In this document: piece after piece, positions 5,335-37,282 of the stretch
How positions within the stretch are numbered: position 1 is the stretch's first letter
Layout of the letters: each line of letters opens with the position of its first letter
Origin: Xanthobacteraceae bacterium
Lineage (GTDB): Bacteria; Pseudomonadota; Alphaproteobacteria; Rhizobiales; Xanthobacteraceae
Direction of reading: 5' to 3'
DNA length: 64,000 nt
NCBI GenBank assembly: GCA_004297465.1
Contig: SCUB01000001.1
Span: 434,001 to 498,000, forward strand
Translations under genes and position numbers: made by a program
Notes under the pieces: generated by a model
The model's database searches: none
Seen by the model: only the letters and a program-made list of their open reading frames with translations
Told to the model about the DNA's origin: nothing

Positions 5335-6603
5335 ATGAGCAAGCCGGTTCAGACCTACCCTTTCGCTCCGTTCGAGTGGATGCTGTCGCTGCGCTACCTG
5401 AGGGCGCGGCGCAAGGAAGGATTCATCTCGGTCATCGCCGGCTTCTCGTTCCTCGGCATCATGCTCGGGGTGGCGACGCTGATCATCGTGATGGCGGTGA
5501 TGAACGGGTTCCGCAAGGAACTGCTCGACAAGATCCTCGGCCTCAACGGCCACCTGCTGATCCAGCCGCTGGAATCGCCGCTGACCGACTGGAAGGCGGT
5601 GTCCGAGCGGATCAGCAAGCTGTCCGGCATCCGGCTCGCCGCCGCCATCGTCGACGGGCAGGCGCTGGCGTCCTCGCCGTTCAATGCCTCGGGCGTGCTG
5701 GTGCGCGGCATCCGCGCCGAGGACCTCATGAAACTCTCCTCGATCGCCAAGAACATCAAGCAGGGCACGCTCGAAGGCTTCGATGACGGGCAGGGCGTGG
5801 CGATCGGCCGGCGGCTCGCCGATCAGCTGTCGCTGCGCACCGGCGACACCCTGACGCTGGTGGCGCCGCGCGGCGCGGTGACGCCGATGGGCACCACGCC
5901 GCGCATCAAGCCCTACAAGATCGCCGCGGTGTTCGAGATCGGCATGTCGGAATACGACGCCTCGTTCGTGTTCATGCCGCTGGCCGAGGCGCAGGCTTAT
6001 TTCAACCGCGCCAACGACGTCACCGCCATCGAGGTCTACACCACCAATCCCGACCGCATCGACGTGTTTCGAAAGAACGTCACCGAGGCCGCCGGCCGGC
6101 CGGTGTTCCTGGTCGACTGGCGACAGCGCAACGCCACTTTCTTCAACGCGCTCCAGGTCGAGCGCAACGTGATGTTCCTCATCCTCACGCTGATCGTGCT
6201 GGTGGCGGCGCTCAACATCATTTCCGGCCTGATCATGCTGGTGAAGGACAAGGGCAGCGACATCGCCATCCTGCGCACCATGGGTGCGGCCCAGGGCGCG
6301 ATCCTGCGCGTGTTCCTCATCACGGGTGCCGCGATCGGCGTGGTCGGCACCATTGTCGGCTTCCTTGTCGGCCTGATCGTGTGCCTCAACATCGAAACGA
6401 TCCGGCAATTCCTGTCCTGGGTCACCAACACCCAGCTGTTCTCGCCGGAACTGTACTTCCTGTCGCGGCTGCCGGCCGACATGGATGTCGGCGAAACCGC
6501 GGCGGTGGTCATCATGGCGCTGGCGCTGTCATTCCTCGCCACTCTGTATCCGTCGTGGCGCGCCGCCCGCCTCGATCCGGTCGAGGCGCTGCGTTATGAA
6601 TGA
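5335..6603 (+). CDS. lolC: Lipoprotein-releasing ABC transporter permease LolC/E type
   Basis: A 422-residue inner membrane permease that, with LolD, extracts outer-membrane lipoproteins from the inner membrane and hands them to LolA. The N-terminus has the family signature [27 protein letters not shown] broken here into its parts: [12 protein letters not shown] and [14 protein letters not shown]. The first membrane helix spans about residues 33-55, followed by a periplasmic domain of about 220 residues. Three C-terminal helices occupy roughly 275-300, 320-345 and 380-405, and the terminal segment is [11 protein letters not shown]. Alphaproteobacteria usually have this single permease rather than separate LolC and LolE. 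The stop overlaps the lolD start. Confidence 0.93.
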
Positions 6604-7741: not shown

Positions 7742-7881
7742 GAGATGCTCCTTTCTTTCTGCTGCTTGTTCCAATCAGAACAATTCGCAGCACGGAGGGT
7801 GCCGGAGCCTAGCAGCGTGAATCTGATGTGACAGACACAACGCCGTGAGATGGAATCACCAAGATGTGTCATCACAAGAAC

Positions 7882-7939
7882 GATCGATCATATCGATCTT
7901 TCAAATGATCATGGCGATCCATCGATCATGTCGATCTTT
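7882..7939. repeat. GATC cluster with 17-base direct repeat
   Basis: Seven GATC tetranucleotides occur between 7882 and 7936. Within them CGATCATATCGATCTTT (7885-7901) is repeated as CGATCATGTCGATCTTT (7923-7939), one mismatch, 38 bases apart. The segment lies between the two DUF3551 genes, upstream of the first. It may be a pair of operator sites, but this is inference. Confidence 0.6.
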
Positions 7940-7956
7940 GACGCGGCGGGAAAAAA

Positions 7957-8241
7957 TCAATACCGCCGCTGGTATCGACTTCTGCGCTGGCCCGGCGTCG
8001 GCGGCAGATACATCGGATTTTCGTAGCAGTAGCCGATGTTGGGCGAGGCCGTTGCCATGCACTGCGCGCGGCTGACAAATCCGCAATTGGTGCCGCCATC
8101 GCCGTCGCTGCCGCCATATATGATGCACCACGGATAGATCACCTCGGCGCGCGCGGGTGTAGCGGTGAGATCGCCGGCGCAGAGGAGTCCGGCCGCGACG
8201 GCGAGCGGAGCGAGGCGCAGGAATTGGGATGTCGATCGCAT
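7957..8241 (-). CDS. DUF3551 family small secreted protein, second copy
   Basis: A 94-residue secreted protein with a clear signal peptide (MRSTSQF, hydrophobic LAPLAVAAGLLC, Ala-X-Ala site near TPARAEV). The mature part has YPWCIIYGG, TNCGFVSRAQCMA and GYCYENPMY, a good match to the DUF3551 consensus, including the NCGF element that the first copy has lost. The C-terminus is Arg-rich. GAGAGG lies upstream of the ATG. It is about 215 bases upstream of the other DUF3551 gene on the same strand, so the two probably arose by tandem duplication and then diverged. Function unknown; export to the periplasm or outside is inferred from the signal peptide. Confidence 0.82.
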   Translation of the reverse strand: MRSTSQFLRLAPLAVAAGLLCAGDLTATPARAEVIYPWCIIYGGSDGDGGTNCGFVSRAQCMATASPNIGYCYENPMYLPPTPGQRRSRYQRRY

Positions 8242-8420
8242 GGCTGGAACCTCTCGTGTGATTCATTCGCGCCGACCATAGCAACGGACGGCATGGCCCA
8301 ACTACACAACGCAGTCATCGCTGGAAAGATCGCTGGGGGTAAGCCTGGCCTTGTCCCGGCTTCCCGCCAGGCGGACGTGATCAGCCGGCCATCGCTCTTT
8401 CAGAGGTCTCCAGCGAGGTC

Positions 8421-8448
8421 TTGACAAATAGAACAAATAAGGAACAAT
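8421..8448 (+). promoter_or_regulatory. SOS-type promoter with LexA box
   Basis: A consensus -35 hexamer TTGACA lies at 8421-8426 and a -10-like AACAAT at 8443-8448 with a 16-base spacer. The alphaproteobacterial LexA box GAAC-AAATAAG-GAAC (GTTC-N7-GTTC on the other strand) occupies 8431-8445, between and overlapping the two hexamers, exactly where a repressor would block RNA polymerase. A second half site, GTTC at 8449-8452, makes GAACAATGTTC. The same box type occurs upstream of lexA in this window. Confidence 0.8.
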
Positions 8449-8477
8449 GTTCTCTCTACGTTCCTTGGGAGGGAGCC

Positions 8478-8576
8478 ATGCTCAAGACGCTGATTGAAGA
8501 AGTCGCCTCGCTGATGTCCGTCGTGCTGTTCGTGAGCATGGTGGCGATCTGGGCGCAGGTATTTTCCACGCTTTAG
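8478..8576 (+). CDS. 32-residue membrane peptide under LexA-box promoter
   Basis: The frame encodes MLKTLIEEVASLMSVVLFVS followed by MVAIWAQVFSTL. The first eight residues are charged and amphipathic, and residues 9-28 form one hydrophobic helix long enough to span the membrane, with a single Trp. A strong Shine-Dalgarno (GGGAGGG) ends five bases before the ATG. The start is about 30 bases downstream of the -10 of an SOS promoter. A stem-loop follows the stop. This is the architecture of SOS-induced single-span peptides such as SidA of Caulobacter crescentus, which blocks division through FtsW/FtsN. Sequence identity to SidA is not claimed. Expression, membrane insertion and a division role are all inferred. 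Confidence 0.68.
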   Translation: MLKTLIEEVASLMSVVLFVSMVAIWAQVFSTL

Positions 8577-8598
8577 GTATTTTCTTTGCGATGCGGGG

Positions 8599-8627
8599 CC
8601 CATGCGCCTGGGGAAAGGGCGCATGGG
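8599..8627 (+). terminator. Stem-loop after the SOS peptide gene
   Basis: CCCATGCGCC (8599-8608) pairs with GGCGCATGGG (8618-8627), a perfect 10-bp stem with a 9-base loop, 22 bases after the stop codon of the 32-residue peptide. There is no U-tract directly after it, so termination may be partial. Confidence 0.45.
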
Positions 8628-8745
8628 GGAGCTTGCCGCCTTGTCCGGGCGGCGCGGATCGTGATTGTCTAGCCCGGCGCCCGCGGCGGATCCCGCCGAG
8701 TCGGATCGTCGCCGGCGCTGGGGCGTCATGCAACAGGGCAATGAG

Positions 8746-8769
8746 GGCCGGCCCCAAGGGGTGCCGGCC
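8746..8769 (+). terminator. Stem-loop terminator upstream of dnaE
   Basis: GGCCGGC-CCC-AA-GGG-GT-GCCGGCC forms a long GC-rich stem with a two-base bulge, followed by TGTTTG. It lies 73 bases before the dnaE start and probably separates the SOS peptide transcript from dnaE. Confidence 0.5.
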
Positions 8770-8842
8770 TGTTTGCCGTTTAACGCCGATGGAGCCGCGG
8801 CCCCGCGGGCCATCGTCACCGGATGAAGGAAAGGAGAGCGCA

Positions 8843-11800
8843 ATGGCCGTAGCGGGTGCGTCGCCGGGATTTGTGCACCTCCACGTCCATTCATCCTTCT
8901 CGCTGCTGGAGGGGGCGCTGACCATTGCGCGGCTCGCGGAATTGGCCAAGGCCGACCGCCAGCCGGCGCTGGCGCTCACCGACACCGACAACCTGTTCGG
9001 CGCGCTGGAATTTTCCGAGAAGATGGCGGGAAGCGGCATCCAGCCGATCATCGGCTGCGCGCTGGCGGTCGATTTCGGCGATCAGGAGGCCGGCGGTCCG
9101 CGCGGGGCTATCCCGGCGCCGCCGCCACGGCTGGTGCTGCTGGCGCCGAGCGAGGCCGGCTATCGCAGTCTGATGCGGCTCAATTCCCGCGCCTTCCTCG
9201 AAACCCCGCCGCACGAGCGGCCCCATCTCAAGGCGGCCTGGCTCGAGGGCGAGGCGGAGCACCTCATCGCCCTGACCGGCGGGCCCGACGGGCCGCTGGC
9301 GGCCGCCTTTGCCGTCAACCAGGCGGCGCTCGCCGCCGGCCGGGCCGAGCTGCTGGCGCGCCTGTTCGGCGACCGGCTCTATGTCGAGCTGCAGCGCCAC
9401 GGCGTCGAGGCGGAACGGCTGGCCGAACCGGCGCTGATCGACCTCGCCTACGCCAGGGGCCTGCCGCTGGTCGCCACCAACGAGCCGTACTTCGCCACCG
9501 CCGACGATTACGAGGCGCACGACGCGCTGATCTGCATCGCCGAGGGCCGGCTGATCGCCGATGCCGAGCGCCGGCAGCTGACGCCCGAGCATCGCTTCAA
9601 GACCCGCGCCGAAATGGCGGTGCTGTTCGCCGACCTGCCCGAGGCGCTGGCCTCGACGGTCGAGATCGCGCGGCGCTGCTCCCATCGCCCGACCACGCGC
9701 AAGCCGATCCTGCCGCGGTTCACGGTGGGAGGCAGCGCCAGCGTCGCCGATGCCGAAGCCGCCGAGGCCGCGGAATTGCAGGCCCAGGCCGAAGAGGGGC
9801 TGGCCCAGCGCCTGGCGGCCAACGGTCTTGCCCCCGGCGTCAGCGAGGAGGCCTACCGCGAGCGTCTCGGTTTCGAGCTCGGCGTCATCGGGCGCATGAA
9901 GTATCCGGGCTACTTCCTGATCGTCGCCGACTTCATCAAGTGGGCGAAGTCGCAAGGCATTCCGGTCGGGCCGGGCCGCGGTTCGGGCGCCGGCTCGCTG
10001 GTCGCCTATTCGCTGACCATCACCGATCTCGACCCGATCCGGTTCGGCCTGCTGTTCGAGCGCTTCCTCAATCCGGACCGCGTCTCGATGCCGGACTTCG
10101 ACATCGACTTCTGCCAGGACCGCCGCGACGAGGTGATCCGCTATGTGCAGGAGCGCTACGGCCGCGACCAGGTGGCGCAGATCATCACCTTCGGCACCTT
10201 GCAGGCGCGCGGCGTGCTGCGCGACGTCGGCCGCGTGCTGCAGATGCCCTATGGCCAGGTCGACAAGCTGACCAAGCTGGTGCCGCAGAACCCGACCGCG
10301 CCGGTCACGCTGGCCGCCGCCATCAAGGGCGAGCCGAAGCTGCAGGCGTTCCGCGACAGCGATCCGGTCACCGCGCGCGCCTTCGACATCGCGCAGAAGC
10401 TAGAAGGCCTGACGCGCCACGCCTCGACCCATGCCGCCGGCATCGTGATCGGCGACCGGCCGCTCAACGAGCTGGTGCCGCTTTATCGCGATCCGAAATC
10501 CGACATGCCGGTGACCCAGTTCAACATGAAGTGGGTGGAGCCTGCCGGTCTCGTCAAGTTCGACTTCCTCGGCCTCAAGACGCTGACCGTGCTCGATGTC
10601 GCCGCCAAGCTGGTGCGCCGCCGCGGCATCGGCCTCGACATCGCGACGCTGCCGCTCGACGACGCGCCGACCTACGCCATGCTGGCGCGCGGCGAGACCG
10701 TCGGCGTGTTCCAGGTGGAAAGCCAGGGCATGCGGCGGGCGCTGGCCGATATGCGGCCCGACCGTTTCGAGGACATCATCGCGCTGGTCGCGCTGTACCG
10801 GCCCGGGCCCATGGCCAACATCCCGACCTATTGCGCGCGCAAGCACGGCGACGAGGCGCCGGAATACATCCATCCGCAGCTCGAACCGATCCTGCGCGAA
10901 ACCTTCGGCGTCATCATCTACCAGGAGCAGGTGATGCAGATCGCTCAGGTGCTGGCCGGCTACTCGCTCGGCGAGGCCGACCTGCTGCGCCGCGCCATGG
11001 GCAAGAAGATCCACAAGGAGATGCAGGACCAGCGCGCGCGCTTCGTCGAGGGCGCGGTCGGGCGCGGCGTCGCGCGCTCCCAGGCCGACGAGATCTTCGA
11101 TCTGCTCGCCAAGTTCGCCGACTACGGCTTCAACAAGAGTCACGCCGCGGCCTATGCGCTGGTCGCCTATCAGACCGCCTACATGAAGGCGCATTACCCG
11201 GCGGAATTCCTCGCCGCGTCGATGACGCTCGACATGAACAACACCGACAAGCTCTCCGAGTTCCGTGCCGAGGCGCAGCGGCTCGGCATTCGCGTCGAGC
11301 CGCCCTCGGTCAACACCTCGGACGTGACATTCGAGGTCAGCGGCGCCTCGATCCATTATGCGCTGGCCGCGATCAAGGGCGTCGGCGCGCAGGCCATGAC
11401 GCTGCTGGTCGCGGCGCGCGGCGCCGCGCCGTTCCGCGATCTCGCGGATTTTGCCCGTCGCGTCAGCCCGCGCGCGCTCAACAAGCGGGTGATCGAGCGC
11501 CTCGCGGCGGCGGGCGCGTTCGATGGCCTCGAACCCAACCGCGCGCGCGCATTCGCCGGCGCCGACGCCATCCTCGCCGAGGCGCAGCGCGCCCATGAAT
11601 CGGCAACGCTCGGGCAGAACGAACTGTTCGGCGGCGGCACGGACGCCGGGCACGCCATGCTGGCGCTGCCTTCGGTCGAGCCGTGGCTGCCGGGCGAGCG
11701 GCTGCAGCACGAATACGATGCCATCGGCTTTTTCCTGAGCGGCCATCCGCTCGACGATTACGGGCCGACGCTCAAGCGGCTGCGGGTGCAGTCATGGGCC

Positions 11801-12337
11801 GAGTTCTGCCGCGCGGTGAAGAACGGCGCCACCGCGGGCCGCGTCGCCGCCACCGTGGTGTCGCGCACCGAGCGGCGCACCAAGACCGGCAACAAGATGG
11901 GTATCCTCGGGCTGTCGGATCCGACCGGCCATTTCGAGGCGGTGATCTTTTCCGAAGGACTGGCGCAGTTCCGCGACCTGCTGGAGCCGGGCATGGCGGC
12001 GCTGGTGCAGCTCGGCGCCGAGATGCAGGGCGACGAGGTGCGCGCCCGCATCAACGCGGTCGAGGCGCTCGATGCGGTCGCCGCCCGCACCCCGGCCAGC
12101 CTGCGCGTCTTCCTGCGCGACGACAAGCCGCTCGACAGCGTGGCGAAACGGCTCGAAAGCGTGCGCGCGGCCAGCGGGCGCGGCGGCGAGGCGGCCGCCG
12201 GCACCGTCACCATGGTGATGATGGTCGACCTCGAAACCGAAGTCGACGTCCGCCTGCCGGGGCAGTTCAGGGTCACGCCGCAGACCGCCGGGGCCATCAA
12301 GGCGGTGCCCGGTGTGGTGATGGTCGAGATGATCTGA
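8843..12337 (+). CDS. dnaE: DNA polymerase III alpha subunit (DnaE1)
   Basis: Replicative polymerase, 1164 residues from the ATG at 8843, which has AAGGAAAGGAGAG just upstream. Longer in-frame starts are possible but add an unconserved Gly/Arg-rich leader. The N-terminal PHP domain begins with HLHVHSSFSLLEG. The polymerase palm has GPGRGSGAGSLVAY near residue 375 and the catalytic PDFDIDFCQDRRDEVI near residue 417. The finger region with HASTHAAGIVIG and the helix-hairpin-helix (RALNKRVIERLAAAGAFD) follow, then an OB-fold domain near residue 1000. The order shows DnaE1 rather than the error-prone DnaE2. It lies directly downstream of an SOS promoter region, so read-through is worth testing. 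Confidence 0.96.
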   Translation: MAVAGASPGFVHLHVHSSFSLLEGALTIARLAELAKADRQPALALTDTDNLFGALEFSEKMAGSGIQPIIGCALAVDFGDQEAGGPRGAIPAPPPRLVLLAPSEAGYRSLMRLNSRAFLETPPHERPHLKAAWLEGEAEHLIALTGGPDGPLAAAFAVNQAALAAGRAELLARLFGDRLYVELQRHGVEAERLAEPALIDLAYARGLPLVATNEPYFATADDYEAHDALICIAEGRLIADAERRQLTPEHRFKTRAEMAVLFADLPEALASTVEIARRCSHRPTTRKPILPRFTVGGSASVADAEAAEAAELQAQAEEGLAQRLAANGLAPGVSEEAYRERLGFELGVIGRMKYPGYFLIVADFIKWAKSQGIPVGPGRGSGAGSLVAYSLTITDLDPIRFGLLFERFLNPDRVSMPDFDIDFCQDRRDEVIRYVQERYGRDQVAQIITFGTLQARGVLRDVGRVLQMPYGQVDKLTKLVPQNPTAPVTLAAAIKGEPKLQAFRDSDPVTARAFDIAQKLEGLTRHASTHAAGIVIGDRPLNELVPLYRDPKSDMPVTQFNMKWVEPAGLVKFDFLGLKTLTVLDVAAKLVRRRGIGLDIATLPLDDAPTYAMLARGETVGVFQVESQGMRRALADMRPDRFEDIIALVALYRPGPMANIPTYCARKHGDEAPEYIHPQLEPILRETFGVIIYQEQVMQIAQVLAGYSLGEADLLRRAMGKKIHKEMQDQRARFVEGAVGRGVARSQADEIFDLLAKFADYGFNKSHAAAYALVAYQTAYMKAHYPAEFLAASMTLDMNNTDKLSEFRAEAQRLGIRVEPPSVNTSDVTFEVSGASIHYALAAIKGVGAQAMTLLVAARGAAPFRDLADFARRVSPRALNKRVIERLAAAGAFDGLEPNRARAFAGADAILAEAQRAHESATLGQNELFGGGTDAGHAMLALPSVEPWLPGERLQHEYDAIGFFLSGHPLDDYGPTLKRLRVQSWAEFCRAVKNGATAGRVAATVVSRTERRTKTGNKMGILGLSDPTGHFEAVIFSEGLAQFRDLLEPGMAALVQLGAEMQGDEVRARINAVEALDAVAARTPASLRVFLRDDKPLDSVAKRLESVRAASGRGGEAAAGTVTMVMMVDLETEVDVRLPGQFRVTPQTAGAIKAVPGVVMVEMI

Positions 12338-36490: not shown

Positions 36491-37189
36491 TCAGTAGCGG
36501 CGGATCAGGCCGATCAGCTTGCCCTGGATGCGGACGCGATTGGGCGGCAGGATGCGCACCTCGTAGGCGGCGTTGGCGGGTTCGAGCGCGATCGATGCGC
36601 CGCGGCGGCGGAATCGCTTGAGCGTCGCCTCCTCGTTGTCGATCAGCGCCACCACGATGTCGCCGGTCTGGGCGGCGTCGCCGCGCTGGATCAGCGCCAT
36701 GTCGCCGTCGAGGATGCCGGCCTCCACCATGGAATCGCCGCGCACTTCAAGGGCGTAATGGTCGCCGCTCGCCAGCATCTCCGGTGGTACGTTGATGGTG
36801 TGGCTGCGGGTCTGGATCGCCTCGATCGGGGTGCCGGCGGCGATGCGGCCCATCACCGGCACCGTGACCGGGCGGCCGCCTTCATCCTCCGCGGGGGTAC
36901 GCACCCTGCCGAGGTTGCCTTCGATGATGCTGGGGGTGAATCCGCGGCGCGGACCCGCGAACGCCGGGGCCGACTGCTCGGGCAGCTTGATGACCTCGAT
37001 GGCGCGGGCGCGGTTGGGCAGGCGGCGGATGAAGCCGCGCTCCTCCAGCGCCGTGATCAGGCGGTGAATGCCGGATTTCGAGCGCAGGTCGAGCGCGTCC
37101 TTCATCTCGTCGAAGGACGGCGGCACGCCGGATTCCTTCAGGCGTTCATGGATGAAGCGCAGGAGCTCGAGTTGCTTGCGAGTCAGCAT
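36491..37189 (-). CDS. lexA: SOS repressor LexA
   Basis: Repressor-protease of the SOS regulon, 232 residues. The winged helix-turn-helix includes [20 protein letters not shown] at residues 23-42. The self-cleavage site is Ala118-Gly119 in MGRIAAGTP, and the Ser/Lys dyad is Ser153 in RGDSMVEAG and Lys191 in EATLKRF. I chose the start at 37189 ([10 protein letters not shown]), the conserved family start; an upstream in-frame ATG at 37252 would overlap the operator region. It is expected to repress itself through the boxes at 37253-37282 and the promoter at 8421-8448. Confidence 0.96.
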
Positions 37190-37252: not shown

Positions 37253-37282
37253 GAACGAACACTATATGTTCCATATGTGTTC
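37253..37282 (-). promoter_or_regulatory. Tandem LexA half-sites upstream of lexA
   Basis: GTTC-CATATGT-GTTC at 37268-37282 is a canonical alphaproteobacterial SOS box. GAAC-ACTATAT-GTTC at 37257-37271 overlaps it with the same 7-base spacing, and one more GAAC is at 37253-37256. Four half-sites within 30 bases lie 64-93 bases upstream of the lexA start, consistent with autoregulation. Confidence 0.88.

Follow-up and report, generated by a model that had tools for sequence, protein, structure and literature searches.

Genomic Context and Promoter of the Locus

The window, that is, the whole 64-kb stretch of DNA that was analyzed, contains the genes lolE (5335–6603) and lolD (in an ORF extending to 7309), two neighboring genes on the other strand with family matches to DUF3551 (PF12071; 7463–7774 and 7957–8241, − strand), a 32-codon ORF on the + strand (MLKTLIEEVASLMSVVLFVSMVAIWAQVFSTL; 8478–8576) and dnaE, in this order. 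The latter, coding for the DNA polymerase III alpha subunit (8843–12337, + strand), was recognized by its match to NF004226 (1481 bits, cut-off 1002) and starts 266 bases after the short frame. Between 7870 and 7940 GATC occurs seven times, a density that no other 70-base stretch of the window exceeds (10-base steps), and TCGATCATNTCGATCTTT is found twice in this region, at 7884 and 7922.

Upstream of the peptide the layout is TTGACA / GAACAAATAAGGAAC / AAT / GTTCTCTCTACGTTC / GGAGG / ATG. The −35 element TTGACA, already proposed in the initial annotation, was found at 8421–8426 (+ strand) by a promoter scan and by the alignment of 22 promoters (that of the window and those of 21 of the other 29 peptide loci). 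The GAAC-N7-GAAC LexA box of that annotation, GAACAAATAAGGAAC, was located between the −35 and −10 elements, at 8431–8445 (+ strand); a second box, inverted and reading GTTCTCTCTACGTTC on the + strand (8449–8463, − strand), had been overlooked. This box is separated from the first by 3 bp and overlaps the candidate −10 element. Both boxes were identified by pattern search and by conservation. As −10 element, AATGTT (8446–8451, with a 19-base spacer after the −35) was putatively assigned, given that [AT]ATGTT is the prevailing reading of these columns in the alignment of 22 promoters, whereas the promoter scan, in which 10 of 12 promoter positions matched at the peptide site, favored AACAAT (8443–8448). 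The Shine-Dalgarno sequence announced previously corresponds, by reading, to GGAGG (8468–8472, + strand), with the start codon 5 bases later.

Conservation of the LexA Boxes

The pattern GAACN7GAAC, searched in both strands, was found at five sites in the window, compared with 1.3–1.4 expected, and none of 100 shuffles contained as many. The genome has 24 GAACN7GAACA sites, and by their coordinates boxes 1 and 2 form the sole pair less than 100 bp apart. The peptide was recovered at 30 loci, genome G004 contributing two, and 28 of the loci (all except L014 and L038) carry a strict box ahead of the start codon. Strict box 2, closer to the start codon than box 1, was present in 24 loci (exceptions L025, L027, L033, L035, L036, and L038), and both strict boxes in 23. 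The 22 aligned promoters show no variation in TTGAC, in GAAC or in the second GAA. The predicted control by LexA is thus well supported by the conservation of the boxes.

Since about 97% of the SOS promoters of Caulobacter are reported with a single box, according to the available excerpt of PMC12700426, the double operator is unusual. Two LexA operators facing each other should give tight repression, an arrangement that would fit a harmful or toxic product.

The presumed repressor is encoded in the same window: lexA (36497–37189, − strand; TIGR00498, over the cut-off) has its own box upstream, GTTCCATATGTGTTC (37268–37282, + strand, pattern search). This gene and its box had also been overlooked, and in a genome of 3.12 Mb lexA and the peptide lie within one 64-kb window. 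Boxes of the same type precede not only lexA but also ssb, recN, a gene resembling DNA polymerase IV and a radical-SAM gene (PA0069) in this genome; the strict boxes of these other four lie between 32 and about 170 bases ahead of the frames. The family matches of the PA0069 radical SAM and ssb frames were over the cut-off; those of the recN and DNA polymerase IV frames, both cut by the end of the region, were under it. Many of the other strict sites are probably due to chance, because they lie inside long frames.

Constraint and Predicted Structure of the Peptide

The peptide was found in 28 of the 61 genomes searched: in 26 of the 37 of the same family (its own included) and in two of the 24 of the same order, the two matches outside the family having E values of 0.002 and 0.89. 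For the analysis of substitutions, 25 same-family sequences were used, leaving out L025 (of other length) and L037 (second copy from one genome). All of the 300 pairs showed pN < pS, the median dN/dS was 0.20 (246 unsaturated pairs), and the pairwise difference by codon position was 0.34, 0.14, and 0.55. The AlphaFold model consists of a single helix covering residues 2–31 (pLDDT 97) and gives little information beyond helicity. With 32 residues and this helix, the product resembles SidA, which has about 29 residues and one membrane helix; its hydropathy suggests a location in the membrane. The 32-codon frame put forward in the initial annotation, with its one predicted membrane helix, is therefore sustained. 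It persists in relatives under purifying selection, its conservation gives good support for the translation of a hydrophobic, helical product, and the observation of a promoter followed by a peptide is confirmed.

No match to the window peptide was obtained in Pfam and none above a cut-off in NCBIfam, so that "undescribed" was the right word for it as far as these curated libraries go. A match to a Plasmodium domain in the curated-family search (12.9 bits, under its cut-off) was discarded as chance. In genome G004, whose assembly is fragmented, the same peptide appears on two small contigs (L024 and L037) with slightly different promoters, which represent either gene copies or a mixed assembly.

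Distribution Upstream of dnaE

The comparison of synteny suggested at the outset showed that 28 of the 30 peptide loci (exceptions L029 and L038) have dnaE as the next gene in the same orientation; L038 is probably not a member, because it has no box. An order-level profile search gave E ≤ 0.1 in 52 of 150 genomes, with some matches being weak or within longer frames. When 27 of these loci were rechecked (L100–L127 without L125, which has no frame; some come from genomes already present in the 61-genome search), 25 contained a peptide of this design, L119 and L122 failing as peptide loci. In all 25 dnaE comes next, on the same strand, and 21 carried a strict box.

A strict rule was also applied, requiring a strict box followed within 80 bases by a hydrophobic frame of 24–46 codons; this rule overlooks imperfect boxes. 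Another 26 regions were taken mainly from genomes that had given no profile match, and seven of them were still positive by this rule (G030, whose contig begins 267 bases upstream, was left out). At the level of the class, dnaE was located in 374 of 387 genomes, and 90 upstream regions were examined, consisting of the 30 loci returned and 60 more, mostly from different families, hand-picked among the better-scoring matches listed. The strict rule was positive in 17 of the 90, the window included, and negative in 73, against a mean of 0.2 and a maximum of 1 in 20 set shuffles and a single positive on the reverse strand. A class-wide search with the profile of the window group gave out-of-order matches with E values of 0.002–0.1, mostly inside longer frames, which were treated as noise.

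Additionally, 80 named records were fetched by means of CtrA, 50 of them were taken and dnaE was found in 48. A LexA-type box with a short hydrophobic peptide was present before dnaE in 42 of these 48 regions (32 by the strict rule and 10, with near-consensus boxes, by inspection), with no positives in 20 set shuffles or on the reverse strand. The positive regions include those of Rhizobium, Bradyrhizobium, Methylobacterium, Phenylobacterium, and Marinicaulis, among others; peptides of the window type were seen in Afipia, Bradyrhizobium, Rhodopseudomonas, and an unclassified Xanthobacteraceae bacterium, which suggests that the window comes from a Hyphomicrobiales member of Xanthobacteraceae/Bradyrhizobiaceae type. 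The spaced motif E/D-x3-[LF]-x-S-x3-F is carried by some, not all, of the 42. The six negative regions belong to a Bradyrhizobiaceae MAG, Hyphomicrobium, Mesorhizobium, Brevundimonas bacteroides, Brevundimonas SSC2, and Hyphomonadaceae PRO2. In Brevundimonas SSC2 (L325) the box is kept before dnaE and the peptide frame looks broken, possibly by a recent loss of the peptide.

Within the family of the window, eight genomes for which 800 bases upstream of dnaE were available (L328–L335) had neither box nor peptide there, so the peptide is dispensable; in two further genomes of the family dnaE itself was not found. Box and peptide seem to come and go together, the unit being lost or moved as a whole.

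Relationship to SidA of Caulobacter

SidA is described in the available excerpts of PMC4211646 as a 29-residue, SOS-induced inhibitor of division located in the inner membrane, which acts on FtsW, with FtsI and FtsN involved. Its gene corresponds to CCNA_02004 (excerpt of PMC10769358), and dnaE of Caulobacter to CC1926 (a table of PMC1839093, also excerpted). In Caulobacter hibisci and in the strains D5, AP07, and BK020 a 29-residue frame was found before dnaE, with one and the same sequence in hibisci and D5, and with its stop about 18–35 bases before the in-frame start of dnaE. This Caulobacter frame matched NF033228, the NCBIfam family of the cell division inhibitor SidA, with 72.4 bits (cut-off 35); since such a frame directly precedes dnaE, SidA sits before dnaE. 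All 19 Caulobacterales peptides of the SidA-side set matched NF033228 at E ≤ 10 (the score being printed for the first one). In the genus Caulobacter a SidA match was detected in 60 of the 61 genomes sampled, one of the 60 covering residues 1–18 only, and dnaE directly followed it in 29 of 30 loci, the frame of the other not being parsed.

The window peptide shares with SidA a LexA-type promoter, judged at the sequence level, a length of around 30 residues, one hydrophobic helix, the same-strand slot directly upstream of dnaE, and the spacing of an acidic residue, L, S, and F: E8, L12, S14, and F18 in the window correspond to E7, L11, S13, and F17 in SidA and to D7, F11, S13, and F17 in the Rhizobiaceae. 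The two differ in length (32 versus 29 residues) and in the distance to dnaE (266 bases versus about 18–35 in the four Caulobacter sensu stricto genomes), and the window has two strict facing boxes, whereas by reading the relatives in Caulobacter have tandem near-consensus sites. The curated NF033228, with its 35-bit cut-off, gave no match to the window peptide; therefore, this peptide is named here a SidA-like positional ortholog and not a curated SidA. The same family matched 3 of the 28 members of the window group, weakly (best E 0.024), and none of the 15 of the intermediate group.

Profile–profile comparisons, carried out after removing one shared sequence, gave E values of 1.4e-10 for the window group against other Hyphomicrobiales and of 2.4e-6 for the latter against SidA, with none of 100 column shuffles as good in either case, and of 5.2e-4 for the window group directly against SidA, with one of 100 as good. 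In an earlier run of this direct comparison, made before that sequence was removed, the score was equaled by 3 of 150 segment shuffles and by none of 150 full ones. Against the SidA profile the window peptide itself scored 11.9 bits, equaled by 2 of 3000 residue shuffles; the median of its group was only 4.4 bits, a value reached by about 3% of shuffles. A decoy test with this profile was unusable, as the six "decoys" scoring at least as high as the window peptide were real dnaE-upstream peptides from other genomes. The window group thus appears to be linked to SidA mainly via intermediate groups. The likeness is probably due to common descent, because SidA fills the same slot before dnaE in Caulobacter. 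The parallel with SidA drawn in the initial annotation goes further than stated there, extending to the slot before dnaE, and the analogy proposed should probably give way to common descent. Its interpretation as a whole is partly supported.

Proposed Function and Alternative Explanations

We consider it likely that the locus is a SidA-like SOS gene, LexA-repressed and induced by damage, that acts as a brake on late division and most likely shares its ancestral gene with SidA. In this model, LexA bound to the two operators, from behind the −35 to past the −10, would silence the peptide gene. DNA damage would activate RecA, the self-cleavage of LexA would follow and the 32-residue peptide would be made; this would insert into the inner membrane as one helix and stall the late divisome until repair. 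That the late divisome is held inactive would be expected by descent from SidA. We infer the function as division brake and any target such as FtsW/FtsN, and the conserved polar residues E8 and S14 suggest a specific partner.

The linkage to dnaE, kept across many families, and the gaps of only tens of bases in Caulobacter, Phenylobacterium, and Robiginitomaculum could also mean that the peptide serves dnaE, regulating the replicative polymerase gene or acting as its leader under SOS control (by attenuation or translational coupling), and is no division brake. We regard this as improbable: the constraint acts at the amino-acid level, on a hydrophobic peptide carrying a spaced motif, something a leader would not need, the gap in the window amounts to 266 bases, and SidA, which occupies the same slot in Caulobacter, arrests division when made from a plasmid (excerpts of PMC4211646). 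The explanation that the SOS promoter in fact serves dnaE and that the frame behind it arose by chance, to which the shortness of the frame and the absence of a curated family above its cut-off might lend some weight, is in practice refuted by the dN/dS of 0.20, by pN < pS in 300 of 300 pairs and by the retention of the frame in 26 of 37 same-family genomes, and retains practically no probability.

Two further explanations were weighed. DinQ of E. coli, a toxic, SOS-regulated single-transmembrane peptide of the inner membrane (excerpts of PMC3567139), offers a precedent for a general membrane-toxic product that harms the membrane and slows growth without binding the divisome, and the double operator would suit such toxicity; the positional and profile link to SidA and the partner suggested by E8 and S14 argue against it, which makes it unlikely. 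Small, unrelated SOS peptides might also have arisen repeatedly beside dnaE, the likeness to SidA being that of any short membrane helix. The sequences are indeed very short, the direct profile match between the window group and SidA is modest and some slots hold peptides without the motif, e.g., L079. However, slot, strand and box are alike, the spacing E/D-x3-[LF]-x-S-x3-F is common to the window, Rhizobiaceae, and Caulobacter groups, and graded intermediates exist within the order, so that such convergence has a small chance of being correct.

Comparison with Other Small Membrane Proteins and Significance

SOS-induced membrane inhibitors of division are already known as a kind. DidA of Caulobacter has 71 residues, and YneA of Bacillus and SosA of Staphylococcus are larger than the window peptide, with a membrane segment plus another domain. 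Compared by description, YneA and SosA resemble the proposed brake as SOS-induced division inhibitors, FtsW being given as the YneA target in the excerpts available, and differ in belonging to Firmicutes. DidA, again by description, is alike in its small size, its membrane location and its inhibition of division through the FtsW/I/N complex, and differs in being SOS-independent, induced by DriD without LexA (excerpts of PMC4211646). DinQ is likewise similar by description, as an SOS-regulated inner-membrane peptide with a single transmembrane segment, and differs as a toxic peptide for which antisense RNAs are described (excerpts of PMC3567139).

The SOS division inhibitors of different bacteria have been called unrelated genes (PMC4211646, excerpts). 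In the partly available literature, no report was found of SidA outside Caulobacter or beside dnaE, and an earlier mention in the 2011 SidA or 2008 Caulobacter SOS regulon papers is possible. As far as this literature shows, it is new that SidA-like peptides extend across the Hyphomicrobiales and into other families, that they stand before dnaE, and that the promoter in the window's family has a double operator. NF033228 readily finds the Caulobacterales peptides given to it and those of other groups weakly or not at all, and the SidA-like brake may have a much wider distribution than the family name now in use implies. If the peptides upstream of dnaE are SidA-like, a single ancestral damage checkpoint is common to many Hyphomicrobiales and Caulobacterales, and it could be traced through its location and promoter in cases missed by sequence search. 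This would provide a concrete gene for rhizobial models, and raises the new question of the reason for keeping a division brake beside the replicative polymerase gene.

A broader idea, tentative and on balance doubtful, is that Caulobacterales and Hyphomicrobiales inherited a LexA-controlled sidA-dnaE module from a common ancestor, and that this module perhaps goes back further within the Alphaproteobacteria. One damage-induced transcript would then both brake division and raise the replicative polymerase, and the sidA-like peptides might be the SOS division inhibitors that have been missing in rhizobia and related bacteria.

Transcription Toward dnaE

The stem-loop that the initial annotation placed after the stop codon is present (8599–8627, + strand), with a stem of 11 bp instead of the 10 bp stated (8599–8609 with 8617–8627) and a loop of 7 bases. 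The folding of 8577–8660 had a z of −1.77 versus shuffles, and the terminator scan found no terminator-like site on the + strand in 7800–9200. A role as terminator is thus unsupported, and for lack of a T run the structure is not a canonical one. Since no canonical terminator was found before dnaE, some SOS transcripts may enter this gene, and the read-through suggested initially is plausible. In many relatives the peptide and dnaE are separated by tens of bases; at L072, L282, L305, L312, L314, and L320 this is the distance from the peptide stop to the dnaE start, and because the gap is so small dnaE may sit there in an SOS-controlled operon.
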